Source of the DNA: Branchiostoma lanceolatum
Taxonomy: Eukaryota; Chordata; Leptocardii; Amphioxiformes; Branchiostomatidae
Length of the DNA stretch: 64,000 nt
Reading direction: 5' to 3'
Assembly (NCBI RefSeq): GCF_035083965.1
Contig: NC_089724.1
Location: forward strand, 16,610,410 to 16,674,409
The number at the start of each line of letters is the position of its first letter. Positions within the stretch are counted from its first letter, which is position 1. The translations under genes were made by a program, and so were the position numbers. Positions 32,501-55,500 of the stretch are shown one piece after another. Below the pieces are notes generated by a model. It worked only from the letters and a program-made list of their open reading frames with translations, had not been told where the DNA came from and made no database searches.

Positions 32501-35500
32501 GCAAAGCACAGATGACTTTTATAACCAGCATTTTGTATCTGATACAGATACAGTTTATACATGAATGGACTGATGGTAGCTCACTGTGAGATTGCACAAG
32601 ATGGGGTCAGAAGTGGGATTCAAATGAAAGCTACAGTACAGTAACAGTACTTACCCCAGGTTGGTTTGGAGTGGTACATCACGTTCATGCCCAGACACCT
32701 CTTGAGAAACTCCGCCCCCAGCCTCAGTGCACCTGTGCCACTCAGGGTCTGCACACCTGAAGCCTGGAAACACAGCAATTGCTTCTTCCAGTCTCCCCAA
32801 AGTGCAAGGTCACATGTCTAAGTAGCTGGCCATTTTAGCCTTAATCCTGTGGTACTACTGCTAGTACTAGAGACATGCAAATATTCTTCAAGTTTTTCTT
32901 TGTCATACCGGAGTAAGTGATATCTGAGTGAGTGATACCAGACTTGAGAGTGAGTGATACCATGGTATAGTTTAGTTTAGTTTAGCCGAGAAAGGTTTCA
33001 ACTATCTGGCCAACTTCCTTAATCAGCGGACCAAGGTTTTCAAATCAAACCATATGACATTATTGACTGAGGTACATGTAGCTCAATAGAATACCTTGTT
33101 GGTTGATGTTCAATAACATCCAAAGGGTGTACAAGTCATTTGCATTTCATACAAATGTCTACGATGTTCAATGAATAATACATGTACATGTACTCTCTAT
33201 GTTTGAATGTAATCTGGAAATGTTGGTGTCAATGGTTTTACAAGCACTTTATTTCATACCAAACATTACAAACTTGCTTCCAATCCCCAAAGGGCTATCA
33301 GCTACATGTAGTACTGGTGACTCTTTCTTCCACTTACCCTATTTTGAGCAATGGCAGAGGCATCGTCACCAAGCACAAGCTTCGTGGAGGCCTTACAAAA
33401 ACTGTCCAGTCCGCAGACGGGGAGGTACTCGTGGTTCAGGATGGGGTCTGCCGCCATCTGCTGCTCTACGGTACGAACCACGGGCAGAACCCACGGCAAA
33501 CCCTCATCTGTACGGTATGCTAGACGGAGAAGAAGGGTCTGTTACAACATGTTACGCACCATGGGCAGAACCCACAGCACACCCTCATCTGTATAGTATG
33601 CTGGGCGGAGACGAGGGGTCTTTTACAACATGTTACGCACCATGGGCAGAACCCACGGCAAACCCTCATATGTACGGTACGCTGGGCGGAGAAGAAGGGT
33701 CTGTTACAACATGTTCTGTAACAGCTGTTTATTGAAAATCAATTCAAAACTACAAAATGACAGTCACATCAATGGTTTACCTTAAAATTAAATCATGATG
33801 TTGTTATGATTAATTCCTATAGAGTCCATTCCGAGTCACCGCGAGGGTTGTATAATAATATTTGTAATCATTTTGAAAAGTTTCTAATAAAAGAATATCT
33901 GACTAACAATAGTTCTAAATTTTTCTAAAAGATCAAATACAAAAATATGAATTTATTTGAATTTAATTAGATGATTTAGAAATATTTTGAAAGTAACTGC
34001 ACAAAAACCTCTTTATTTGTAATAATTTCTAAACATCTATGTGACTATTTAACTTTTAGAAATATTCACAAGAAATGGTAGAAAATGGTTAACAATGGTA
34101 GAATGGTGATTGCCCCCATAAAAGTAGGTGCTAATCTGGCCCTTCTGTCTGCCTTTGTACATTTTAGACTTCACTGCAGGACACCGCTCGGTCCTTTGTG
34201 GAGAGCATTCTTCCCTAAACTTCGCAAGGATGTGTGAATTGCTTTCTTCCCAGCCCTCTGACCTATTTATAGAGATGTTACAAATAATGGTAGAAAATGG
34301 TAAGAAATTGTAAAAAATTGTGAATAATGGTAGAATGCTGTTACCATTATTTAGAAACCATTGTAAATATCATATTCTACATCATGAATATTTCTAAAGT
34401 TAAAGAAAACTTAAGAAATATTTAGAAAGTTGAAATCACATTCAAAATATTTCAAAAGTATCAAATCTCTTACACAAATAATAACAATAACTTGAAAATA
34501 GTTCTGAATTATGACAATAACAACCCTCGCGGTGACTTGGAATGGACTCTACAACATGTCAATATTATTTGTTACATAAAATGGAAACAGGCACATTCTT
34601 GCTTTTTTGCTTTTTATTAACACTTAATCAATTTACATAGCTAAATTTTATGTGGAGTGAGTGCTACATGCCCCAAGGCCTTAAGCCCTGCCAGCGTGGC
34701 AAGTGACCCATCTTCTACCATTCTTTGTAGGTCTGGGTTTATCAAAGTTTATAATTCATCATATGTACAAAAGTATATAAATGTGAATTTCCAAAATTTA
34801 GAGCACCAAAAAATTTTCCTCCATCAGGGAAAAAAGATATAACAATGGGGACAAAATACCTATTTAGAGAAGACTGAAAATTATGTACAGTGGGATAATC
34901 TGGGCATTTTAAATTACTGGACCAACAGGTTTTCATGTTACAGGCCAGCAAGAAAATAAAATGAAGGAATTACAAGTACCATCATTTCATACAACTTAAT
35001 TAATAAGTTCTACAGCTACAGACAGACAGATCTAGAAGACACACACAGACTCGCCAAAAACTACATGTACACCTCCATCTTTCATGGAGGTACTGATTCA
35101 TCCATGACTTTCAAGTCTATTTTTCTTAGTAACCTATATGTCCAATGTGAAAAAAACTTAGTAGATGTACTATCAGTGCTGAAGCACAAAAGTGACTGGC
35201 TACCTACATGGATTTTTAAGAACAGATACAAAGTGTTGTCACTGGCGCCAGCAAAATTACATGTATTGGGGTCTGACTCTGAATAGGGTTTACATGTACA
35301 CTACAAATCACAAAACATTTTCTGCCCTCTTAACGCAGTAAAGTCAGAAACATTTCCAATGTATTGTCAGAACAGTAGAGGATTGGAACTCCTTTAGTCC
35401 TTACCACAGCTTGTGACTGAAGCTAAAACTATTGATGATTGGACAATCATTGGGGGTGAATAAGAACCTACATCATGTGTCTGTCATGAGAACTGCAAGA

Positions 35501-52500: not shown

Positions 52501-55500
52501 AGAAAATGTATCAAAGGGCTCCCAAATCATCAAAGACAGACTATAAAGAAAAGTTTAAAAAAACATCGTACCATCTTTTACTGTTAGATATTGTATAGCA
52601 GTTTCCTTATCCTTTAGAATTACCTGTCCAAGTTCGCGTCTCACGTCTGAAGTGATGGTAAAATCTCCGAGGGACACATTCTTCACAGCTACCGGCCGGC
52701 CGCAGTACGTCCCCACCGACGGCACGAACTTGCGTCTCGTTCCCAGGTTGAGCAATGACGCGTGGCTTGCCCCTGTGAACGAGCTGAGCAGGGACTGGTG
52801 TTTGCCCGAAGCTACGGGAGACCCAAACCTCAACTGCACCAAACAACAGATAATTCAATTATTTACATGTTTATCTATCATATCTAAACTGAAAGGAAAC
52901 CTATTCTGATTGCATGTTAGATTACAGACTCAGATGTATACAACACGAGCATGGTGTAAAGACCCGTACATACCCCGGGTAAAACAGAGTCTGGTTCTGT
53001 CGGCAAACGAGTATGGTGTAAAGACCCGTACATACCCCGGGTAAAACAGCTCTGGTTCTGTCGGCAAACGAGCATGGTGTAAAGACCCGTACATACCCCG
53101 GGTAAAACAGCTCTGGTTCTGTCGGCAAACTTGACATCCTCCAGGCTGACTTTCCAACAGTTTTTCCCTTTGGTTCTCCACGGAGCCGTAGAGCTAAGAA
53201 ATCCATCGTTCCTAAGACACAAGTAGTAAAGAAACATTTTTATAACGGAACTGTCATTTTCTTTTCGACGAGAAAGGATAGTGCTATAAAGCTAACATGC
53301 ACATTGCGAATTGGTCATTATTGTATTTGCAAAATTGACTTTTGTTTACATTTCAGACGCATATTTTTTCCCCTACATCAAATGAAACAGAAATGCCACC
53401 CAACCAGTGGTAAATAATTGCTACCAAATCAAACTCTACATTATTCTGCACAAAACCCACTTCAGATGTAAACCAGCCAATGACAGTACACCCACGAGGA
53501 CCACAGCAGCCACAGCGACTCCTATGATCATCGGCAAATCTGCAAAATAAAAGTACACACGTCTATAGGAACTCTCCTCTCTGGTGGTATCACCAATGCG
53601 CTTTTGCACTCTTTGAAACGGGTTAGATTTAACAACGTTTGGTAGAGAACATTCAATGAAAGAATTTCGTCAGCAAGATGTACTAACTTCATTATTCAAT
53701 ATGTTCAAGTTCAAAGTCACTAACTCAATTGTAATGTGTATTCCCAATATTCTTCTGTGCAACTGTAAAACCGGTTTGGTAAAAACAAAAGGTGAGTTGT
53801 TTTCTTACCCGATGACTTGTTTTCGGTGCATGTCGGTCCCAAACAGGGGCAGTTTTCTGCGCAGTGCCGGAAAGACAGACAGTTTTCTGACTCCGAACAT
53901 GGCGTCACACCCGGGATGAAGGCGAGAGATTTGTTTTCGCTGGAGAAACCCACGGTCGGGACGAATCTACCATTCTAGAAAATAATATAAAGATTAAGAG
54001 TTGAAAATGAGCACAATGAAAACACAAATTGAAGACAGTACTGGGAGGTTTTGAGTGCACAAGAAACACGTGAATTATGATCCAATCGGGGTATAGCGCG
54101 CGACGGACGAAATATCGGCTACGCTCCTGATGTGTCGCCAAAAATATTTATTTACAAACTGACCAAAACAATTGCATCATGGTGTGGACATGTATAAACG
54201 GTTATCTGTAACGAGCTTGCCGTGCATTTCGTTGAATACTGTTTAACAAGAAGGAAACATTTATAATCGAAAATATACATTGTTTGGAGTTGCCGGCTGT
54301 ACCTGAAAGCTGTATAGAATAAACTCTTGAATCCTGTTGCCCTGTCTGTCGAACTCAAGTTTGCCCGTCAGGCCTGGACAACACAAAAGAGTTATTGATA
54401 TTTCAAACATTCTAAACTCTAACGTCCACATGTAAAGACAGGAAACAGGCTGAATGCTTGATACACAACTTCTCACTTCACGGGCAATACGGTCGCTCTA
54501 CAAAGTCAACAAAGCATTTTTACGTTACCCAAAATTATGATTGGAAAACGTATAAACACTTTCGTTACTACACCTGACAATACTTTCTTTGTGTAAGAGA
54601 AAACGTTGTTTGCTTTTACTCAGTCGTACTTTTATAGCTCAGTATTTTCGGTGCAGTTAGCTATAGTGAGTGAGATATGATTACCGTCAAGTGCGCTGTT
54701 TCCCACGTTGCGACCTGTCGGTGACGTGTTTGTGGAGGTTATGTTGGTGACATGTGTGGCGAGCAGGACCGAGTCGTAAACATAGGCAGCCATGGGCCAC
54801 GGTCCTCCTGCGTCTACAAAGTGTTCTCTTAAAGTACTGCTTGTCTGTATCCTGAAGAGCGTGTAAATACATACATTAAGCTCAGTCTCCAGGAAATAAT
54901 TTTTTTGTAGTAGCTCAGTTAAACTTTCTTGCGGTATCCTGCTGTCTAGGAATATGTTTTAACATTTTGTACAACGTTTTTGTCAAACCCCTAAACGAGG
55001 CAGGTGAAGCCACTACATGTATACAAAATATCCATGTAGACATGCATCAAGAAAGTCATGCACGTTTTAGGAACATACGTTATATACGTTCAGCACCAAG
55101 GACAGGGACAGATATAGTAGATAGCACACAAAAGGAGTCTAGATTGTTACTAGGTTACAAAATCCACGAGTAGTACCTTGGTGCAAGTAGAAGCAGGGCT
55201 TTGTAAGCCTCCAGTAGGACCCCGCCGATTACTGCCTGGGCAATGCTGGAAGGTTTCCAGCTTTCATTCCCCAGAACAGGCAGCGGGGAGAGGTCTATGT
55301 TTATGAAGACCGTGTTCTTTGTCATCTCTAGCTGGTAGGCGGCTATGATCAGGGTGTGTTCATCCTGCATCCCTATGGACGCTCTCGGAACGGCGAAAAT
55401 AACGACTGATTTTGACATAAGGATGTAAATGTGAAGGGTTAGCAAACGTTAAGAATTCCAGATCAAGCATTTAAGACGAATGAAACAAATCTACAATCGT

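Follow-up and report, generated by a model that had tools for sequence, protein, structure and literature searches.

Tandem repeats over exon-intron boundaries in three neighbouring genes of the amphioxus Branchiostoma lanceolatum

We analysed a 64,000-nucleotide stretch of the Branchiostoma lanceolatum genome (contig NC_089724.1, positions 16,610,410 to 16,674,409 of the forward strand), hereafter called the window, whose own numbering is used below. Three genes that are consecutive in our gene models, coding for GOT1, CHMP3 and a receptor guanylate cyclase, each carry a short tandem array over a splice junction, and the three arrays lie within 20 kb. Splice junctions were placed with a purpose-written spliced protein-to-DNA aligner, using human GOT1 and CHMP3, matched to PDB chains, as guides for the first two genes. 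GOT1, the cytosolic aspartate aminotransferase gene, occupies 26523..40708 on the minus strand. Its 9 coding exons specify a protein with 240 of 406 residues identical to the human one, and at its low coordinate the model ends with the stop codon that closes the reading frame of the last exon. CHMP3, coding for a subunit of ESCRT-III, spans 41074..44841 on the plus strand in 6 coding exons, with identity to the human protein at 158/221 residues, and its exon 5 peptide by itself matches CHMP3 in PDB. The third gene, at 46506..56253 on the minus strand, encodes an NPR-type receptor guanylate cyclase (rGC). About 19 exons were modelled with NPR1 and the gene's own reading frames as guides, and the Pfam domains Guanylate_cyc and ANF_receptor match; certain ectodomain and kinase junctions of this model are uncertain. 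For OGA, DCAF10, HELQ and an APRT-like gene, which lie in the remaining window, models were built with guide proteins that were in part stitched together. The joint map comprises 68 exons in 7 genes and 122 junctions. Certain exon ends in it were set manually, and 5 junctions do not fall on AG/GT. Exons make up 17% of the window.

Arrays were called with Tandem Repeats Finder (TRF) and their copies were aligned separately. The GOT1 array (33472-33715, minus strand) lies over the exon 2 acceptor and was reported by TRF as 3.0 units of 81 bp plus 1 bp, with 87% matches. Copy alignment divides it into units at 33472-33552, 33553-33633 and 33634-33714; the first of these is at the exon end and comprises 48 exonic and 33 intronic bp. 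Spliced alignment places the native acceptor at 33519/33520 (ctccgtctag/CATACC, phase 1). The corresponding sites in the outer copies, hereafter called decoys, have their first exon bases at 33600 and 33681, with an adjoining AG. The CHMP3 array (43970-44268, plus strand; 4.5 units of 65 bp, 92% matches) lies over the exon 5 acceptor. Its exon-end unit has 32 exonic and 33 intronic bp, and self-BLAST extends the array by a decayed portion back to about 43941. The native acceptor was placed by spliced alignment at 44236/44237 (gttgtccatcag/GCAGGC), and copy alignment puts the decoy acceptors at 44172, 44107, 44042 and 43977. Finally, the rGC array (52945-53130, minus strand) consists of 3.0 units of 61 bp with 96% matches, the outer unit being 62 bp long, and lies over the donor of a juxtamembrane exon. 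In this case, the exon-end unit is made of 34 exonic and 27 intronic bp. The native donor is at 53096/53097 (CCCGGG/gtatgt, phase 0; spliced alignment), and the decoy donors, with GT at 53035 and 52973 in the copy alignment, are identical in sequence to the native one.

Each array thus covers exactly one modelled junction, which in 3/3 arrays lies in the terminal unit on the exon side. All 8 outer copies are intronic, and AG or GT is retained in 8/8 decoys. A first-pass annotation made from the sequence alone had described three neighbouring genes with arrays of 61-81 bp units over a splice junction, which TRF and spliced alignment confirm. It had also called the units unrelated to each other; they have little in common, the longest common words being of 5-8 bp in the forward and 4-7 bp in the reverse complement orientation (shuffle fractions 0.07-1.00). 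The nearest to a shared signal is an 8-bp word common to the GOT1 and rGC units, with a shuffle fraction of 0.07. Edge homology at the arrays, judged by eye, is 0-2 bp. The motif TACATGTA was counted 19 times for 1.8 expected; an excess of this motif is usual in amphioxus, but in other invertebrates too.

The splice-site scores of the copies and the consequences of their use were then compared. Most decoys score close to the native site. In GOT1, the decoy acceptors score 5.3 and 2.4 as compared to 4.9 for the native one, and in CHMP3 the decoys score 2.5 to 5.1 as compared to 5.1; the weakest are GOT1 copy 2 (2.4) and the outermost CHMP3 copy (2.5). The native rGC donor and both decoys score 2.98. 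Use of either GOT1 decoy would introduce an in-frame stop into the message (2/2). Three of the four CHMP3 decoys would shift the frame, and the fourth (44042, +195 bp) would stay in frame but hit a stop. The middle rGC donor would also cause a frame shift. Damage to the reading frame, by shift or stop, is therefore predicted for 7 of the 8 decoys. For GOT1 and CHMP3, reading-frame analysis yields the conserved protein only via the exon-proximal site.

Divergence was compared for seven of the eight decoys, the outermost CHMP3 copy being left out. Differences from the exon-end copy were found at 18/260 sites of the exon part and at 16/219 sites of the intron part (Fisher P = 1). Exon-derived and intron-derived parts diverge equally, as neutral duplicates would, and because of this equality the copies do not look coding. 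Nine of the 16 changes with an assigned codon position fall at position 1 or 2 (two rGC changes are unassigned). The CHMP3 copies lose similarity to the exon-end copy outward (64/65, 64/65, 56/68 and 51/70), the outer ones being decayed. Divergence in GOT1 is greatest in the middle copy (70/81, as compared to 75/81 for the other), and the rGC copies are nearly alike (60/61 and 60/62).

Outside the arrays, no duplicated flank was found within 600 bp at 118 junctions, the best score being 14 as compared to 58-76 at the arrays; one of the 122 junctions, at the window end, was too close for the flank test, leaving 121. Random controls had a longer tail than junctions (95th percentile 23, 99th 54, maximum 84) because some positions sit in other duplications, and a per-position comparison was therefore run. 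Near duplication, taken as a score of at least 50, was observed at 3/121 junctions (2.48%) and at 120/4896 gene-span positions (2.45%), as well as at 94/3505 positions lying at least 60 bp from any junction (2.68%; binomial P 0.63). The gene-span rate predicts about 3 near-duplicated junctions, and 3 were observed. There is no excess of near duplications at junctions (2.5% vs 2.1-2.7% of other gene positions). Lowering the TRF score to 30 gave 59 rows, hand-merged to 54 arrays; besides the three described above, 0/51 straddle a junction, where 2.23 were expected.

We consider the arrays to be three independent mirages, the term in use for tandem repeats over exon-intron boundaries, and give a probability of about three in four to the view that they arose as ordinary tandem duplications, came to include a junction by chance and are tolerated with the exon-proximal site in use. 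A chance tandem duplication of 61-81 bp would have taken in the exon edge together with its splice signal. Slippage or unequal exchange would then have added copies, and only towards the intron, since the protein would not survive copies placed within the exon. Splicing of the pre-mRNA would continue at the copy nearest the exon, presumably through exon definition, and the duplications would be tolerated for that reason. The outer copies would persist in the intron as decoys with little constraint or none. We infer from the sequence that the exon-proximal site is used, how the arrays grew and that the outer copies are neutral.

Chance placement was evaluated under several nulls. All these tests are post hoc, since the hypothesis was formed from the same data, and they concern one window. 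By chance, a whole array would overlap a junction with a probability of 0.29-0.39 and a single unit with a probability of 0.10-0.14. With whole arrays, the probability that three or all four of the TRF arrays with a period of at least 30 lie on a junction was 0.065 (0.12 within gene spans), and any overlap under circular shift gave 0.070. When only the arrays with at least three copies are considered, 3 of 3 being on a junction, the whole-array values were 0.040 and, within gene spans, 0.078. Self-BLAST revealed two more contiguous two-copy duplications, both intronic; it lists further dispersed pairs, and only these two were counted as tandem, by eye. With them included, P for at least 3 of 6 became 0.06 at the unit level (0.12 within gene spans) and 0.36 at the array level (0.54). 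Overall, P ranges from 0.001 to 0.5 depending on the null, and placement at junctions does not clearly exceed chance.

Some results weigh against a chance origin followed by mere tolerance. With units instead of whole arrays, P for three or more hits among the 4 TRF arrays fell to 0.003 (0.006 within gene spans), and requiring the terminal unit gave 0.007 with independent placement and 0.011 with circular shift. In the set restricted to at least three copies (3 of 3), the corresponding values were 0.0014 (0.0030 within gene spans) and 0.0022. These unit-level and terminal-unit values, from 0.001 to 0.011, hint that arrays with at least three copies may be biased towards junctions. It is also suggestive that the arrays at junctions have three or more copies and the intronic ones two. 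In addition, the outermost rGC donor would leave the frame open and add 41 residues. The first-pass annotation had judged chance placement unlikely in view of the small share of exons. This judgement stands under some of the nulls only, and the per-position control shows no excess (2.48% vs 2.45%); the exon share is indeed small, at 17%, but the argument overlooks how many junctions (122) these exons bring.

An alternative is that tandem duplication favours splice junctions in this genome, owing for instance to co-transcriptional R-loops, pausing of the polymerase or template switching where exons end, and that arrays over boundaries consequently originate more frequently than those within introns. 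Three of the four TRF arrays with a period of at least 30, and all three with at least 3 copies, do lie on a junction, with the low P values of the unit-level (0.001-0.006) and terminal-unit (0.002-0.011) tests, and the accessible parts of the literature describe the same structure in several separately studied amphioxus genes. However, these published cases stem from studies of exons, the tests are post hoc in one window, and P climbs to 0.06-0.12 when the two contiguous intronic duplications are counted. Moreover, junctions are not richer in near duplications (3/121 vs 2.45%), the 118 other junctions lack a duplicated flank within 600 bp, a single exon edge having a dispersed copy 2.2 kb away, and little sequence is common to the units. 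We therefore regard preferred duplication at junctions as unlikely, and a junction-targeted process gained no support beyond the stricter placement tests. The causes put forward in the first-pass annotation, namely duplication primed at splice sites, R-loop or transcription-linked breakage and a repair process specific to the genome, gained no support given the little shared sequence, the equal divergence of the two parts and the lack of a junction excess. A shared motif or an R-loop signature was not supported as cause, with common words of only 4-8 bp and GC skews of 0.00, 0.36 and 0.00. A hairpin was likewise not supported as a general cause, single units not standing out from shuffles (z -0.80, -1.22 and 0.63). 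The CHMP3 array, the only one folded whole, does fold better than shuffles over a 401-base stretch (z -3.15), and in the predicted fold of its unit (z -1.22) the exon-derived part can pair with the intron-derived part, leaving the acceptor in a loop. A related proposal sees junctions as hot spots for duplications of the kind that grows to at least three copies. Arrays would then be present at a few per cent of junctions (3/122 here), amounting to thousands genome-wide and to a steady supply of decoy sites and new-intron material; this we hold to be rather improbable.

The arrays might also be kept for a function, as alternative or spare splice sites. Both the AG or GT kept in 8/8 decoys and the 41 residues that the outermost rGC donor would add in frame are in line with this idea, but intact dinucleotides are unsurprising in copies so similar, 7/8 decoys shift the frame or hit a stop, and the exon-derived parts are no better conserved than the intron-derived ones, with 9/16 changes at codon positions 1 or 2. 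We find a retained function very improbable. Scarcely any weight is left for an assembly artefact, in which merged haplotypes or collapsed reads would have made false tandem copies. As far as the accessible text of the two papers goes, one published globin mirage was apparently wrongly assembled (PMC3087553) and the copy number in PGBD5 differs between assemblies (PMC3902484), but re-sequencing data for PGBD5 speak strongly against an assembly error (PMC3902484). Here, three to five short copies that are about 2-29% different are not typical of haplotype joining.

The window contains other duplications and repeats. In the APRT-like gene, the last 64 bp of exon 4 and 4 intron bases including the donor (21802-21869 and 24032-24099) recur once, 2.2 kb downstream. 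This exon-edge copy is 90% identical over 70 columns, small indels break its frame, and the dispersed duplicate is about the size of mirage units. The two contiguous two-copy duplications are at 48765-49283 in an rGC intron (257 bp, 78% identical) and at 38208-38653 in GOT1 intron 1 (about 220 bp). The latter lies near 13-bp repeats in opposite orientation at 38699-38736 and 39526-39563, and it may be a mobile element. Also inside the GOT1 gene, on the plus strand, a reverse transcriptase reading frame is found at 29384-31012 (Pfam RVT_1, E 5e-37). A dispersed repeat, 89-90% identical in two blocks, occurs in CHMP3 intron 1 (41549-41987) and downstream of CHMP3 (45884-46165). In HELQ, a (CT)n microsatellite (59322-59356) ends 2 bases off the donor edge of an exon (59359-59535).

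The mirage of the amphioxus alcohol dehydrogenase gene Adh3 was reportedly described by Canestro et al. in 2002, a study known here via citing papers. Statements on published cases refer to the accessible parts of the sources. Mirages are reported at Adh3 and in 2 of 15 globin genes (BflGb6 and BflGb9), and two further papers are cited there for other loci (PMC3087553); the boundary-spanning minisatellites that the first-pass annotation mentioned at Adh are therefore in print. They have been described in B. floridae and in B. lanceolatum, at both 5′ and 3′ boundaries. Regular splicing is reported to be undisturbed, copy number differs among haplotypes, and it was suggested that the phenomenon is general and that introns may be gained in this way (PMC3087553). 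Further features associated with mirages are somatic change in copy number and concerted evolution that leaves out the array edges, and their known hosts are amphioxus species. PGBD5 has mirages of 2 x 60 and 3 x 108 bp in one assembly, with 7 and 6 copies in another, and a troponin C mirage is cited in the same paper; a disputed extra exon of PGBD5 shows that mirages can mislead gene prediction (PMC3902484). The presence of arrays at 3 of the 122 junctions studied here, together with 2 of 15 globin genes, is compatible with mirages being common, both samples being small and non-random. If mirages do reach 3 in 122 junctions, whatever their cause, they would allow the spliceosome's choice between near-identical adjacent sites to be studied in a natural experiment and would be a testable source of new introns. 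If placement is neutral, as the evidence favours, the window adds three examples and no new process. Thus, of the recurring process proposed in the first-pass annotation, the recurrence holds, at the published loci and in the three cases here, and a special cause gained no support.

Compared with ordinary coding or intronic minisatellites, the three arrays are alike in unit size, copy number and divergence; unlike them, they cover a splice junction and extend only intron-ward. Intron gain by duplication of AG/GT proto-splice sites, treated, as cited in PMC3087553, by Rogers (1989), Zhuo (2007) and Gao and Lynch (2009), shares with the arrays the duplication of splice signals, but no new intron is inferred for the arrays. 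Intron gain by tandem duplication, which would leave a new intron flanked by duplicated sequence, finds no support at the 118 junctions that lie off the arrays, where flanks score 14 at best. In amphioxus VCBP3, introns contain whole exons or parts of exons that are very similar to the adjacent coding exons, and canonical splice sites accompany some of them (PMC2632668); in the accessible part of that paper they are mentioned without data and are not termed tandem arrays. TRF was run there on the B. floridae genome, and no comparison of the repeats with splice sites was found in that part. Nothing on boundary repeats was found in the accessible part of PMC5802833. Among the matches listed by our literature search, which was limited and had most subscription papers outside its reach, no genome-wide count of mirages was found. 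Like the published mirages, the three arrays consist of minisatellite-like tandem units that include the boundary, at an acceptor or a donor, with many copies carrying AG or GT; here, the unit is of minisatellite size, the boundary is spanned in 3/3 cases and the splice signal is kept in 8/8 decoys. As far as the sources are accessible, published units measure 10-72 bp (Adh3), 60 and 108 bp (PGBD5) and 150-160 bp (BflGb6), and bracket the 61-81 bp found here. The present arrays differ by their new host genes (GOT1, CHMP3 and the receptor guanylate cyclase), by lying three within 20 kb and by being known here from one sequence. The phenomenon is already known in amphioxus, and the three arrays are further mirages.

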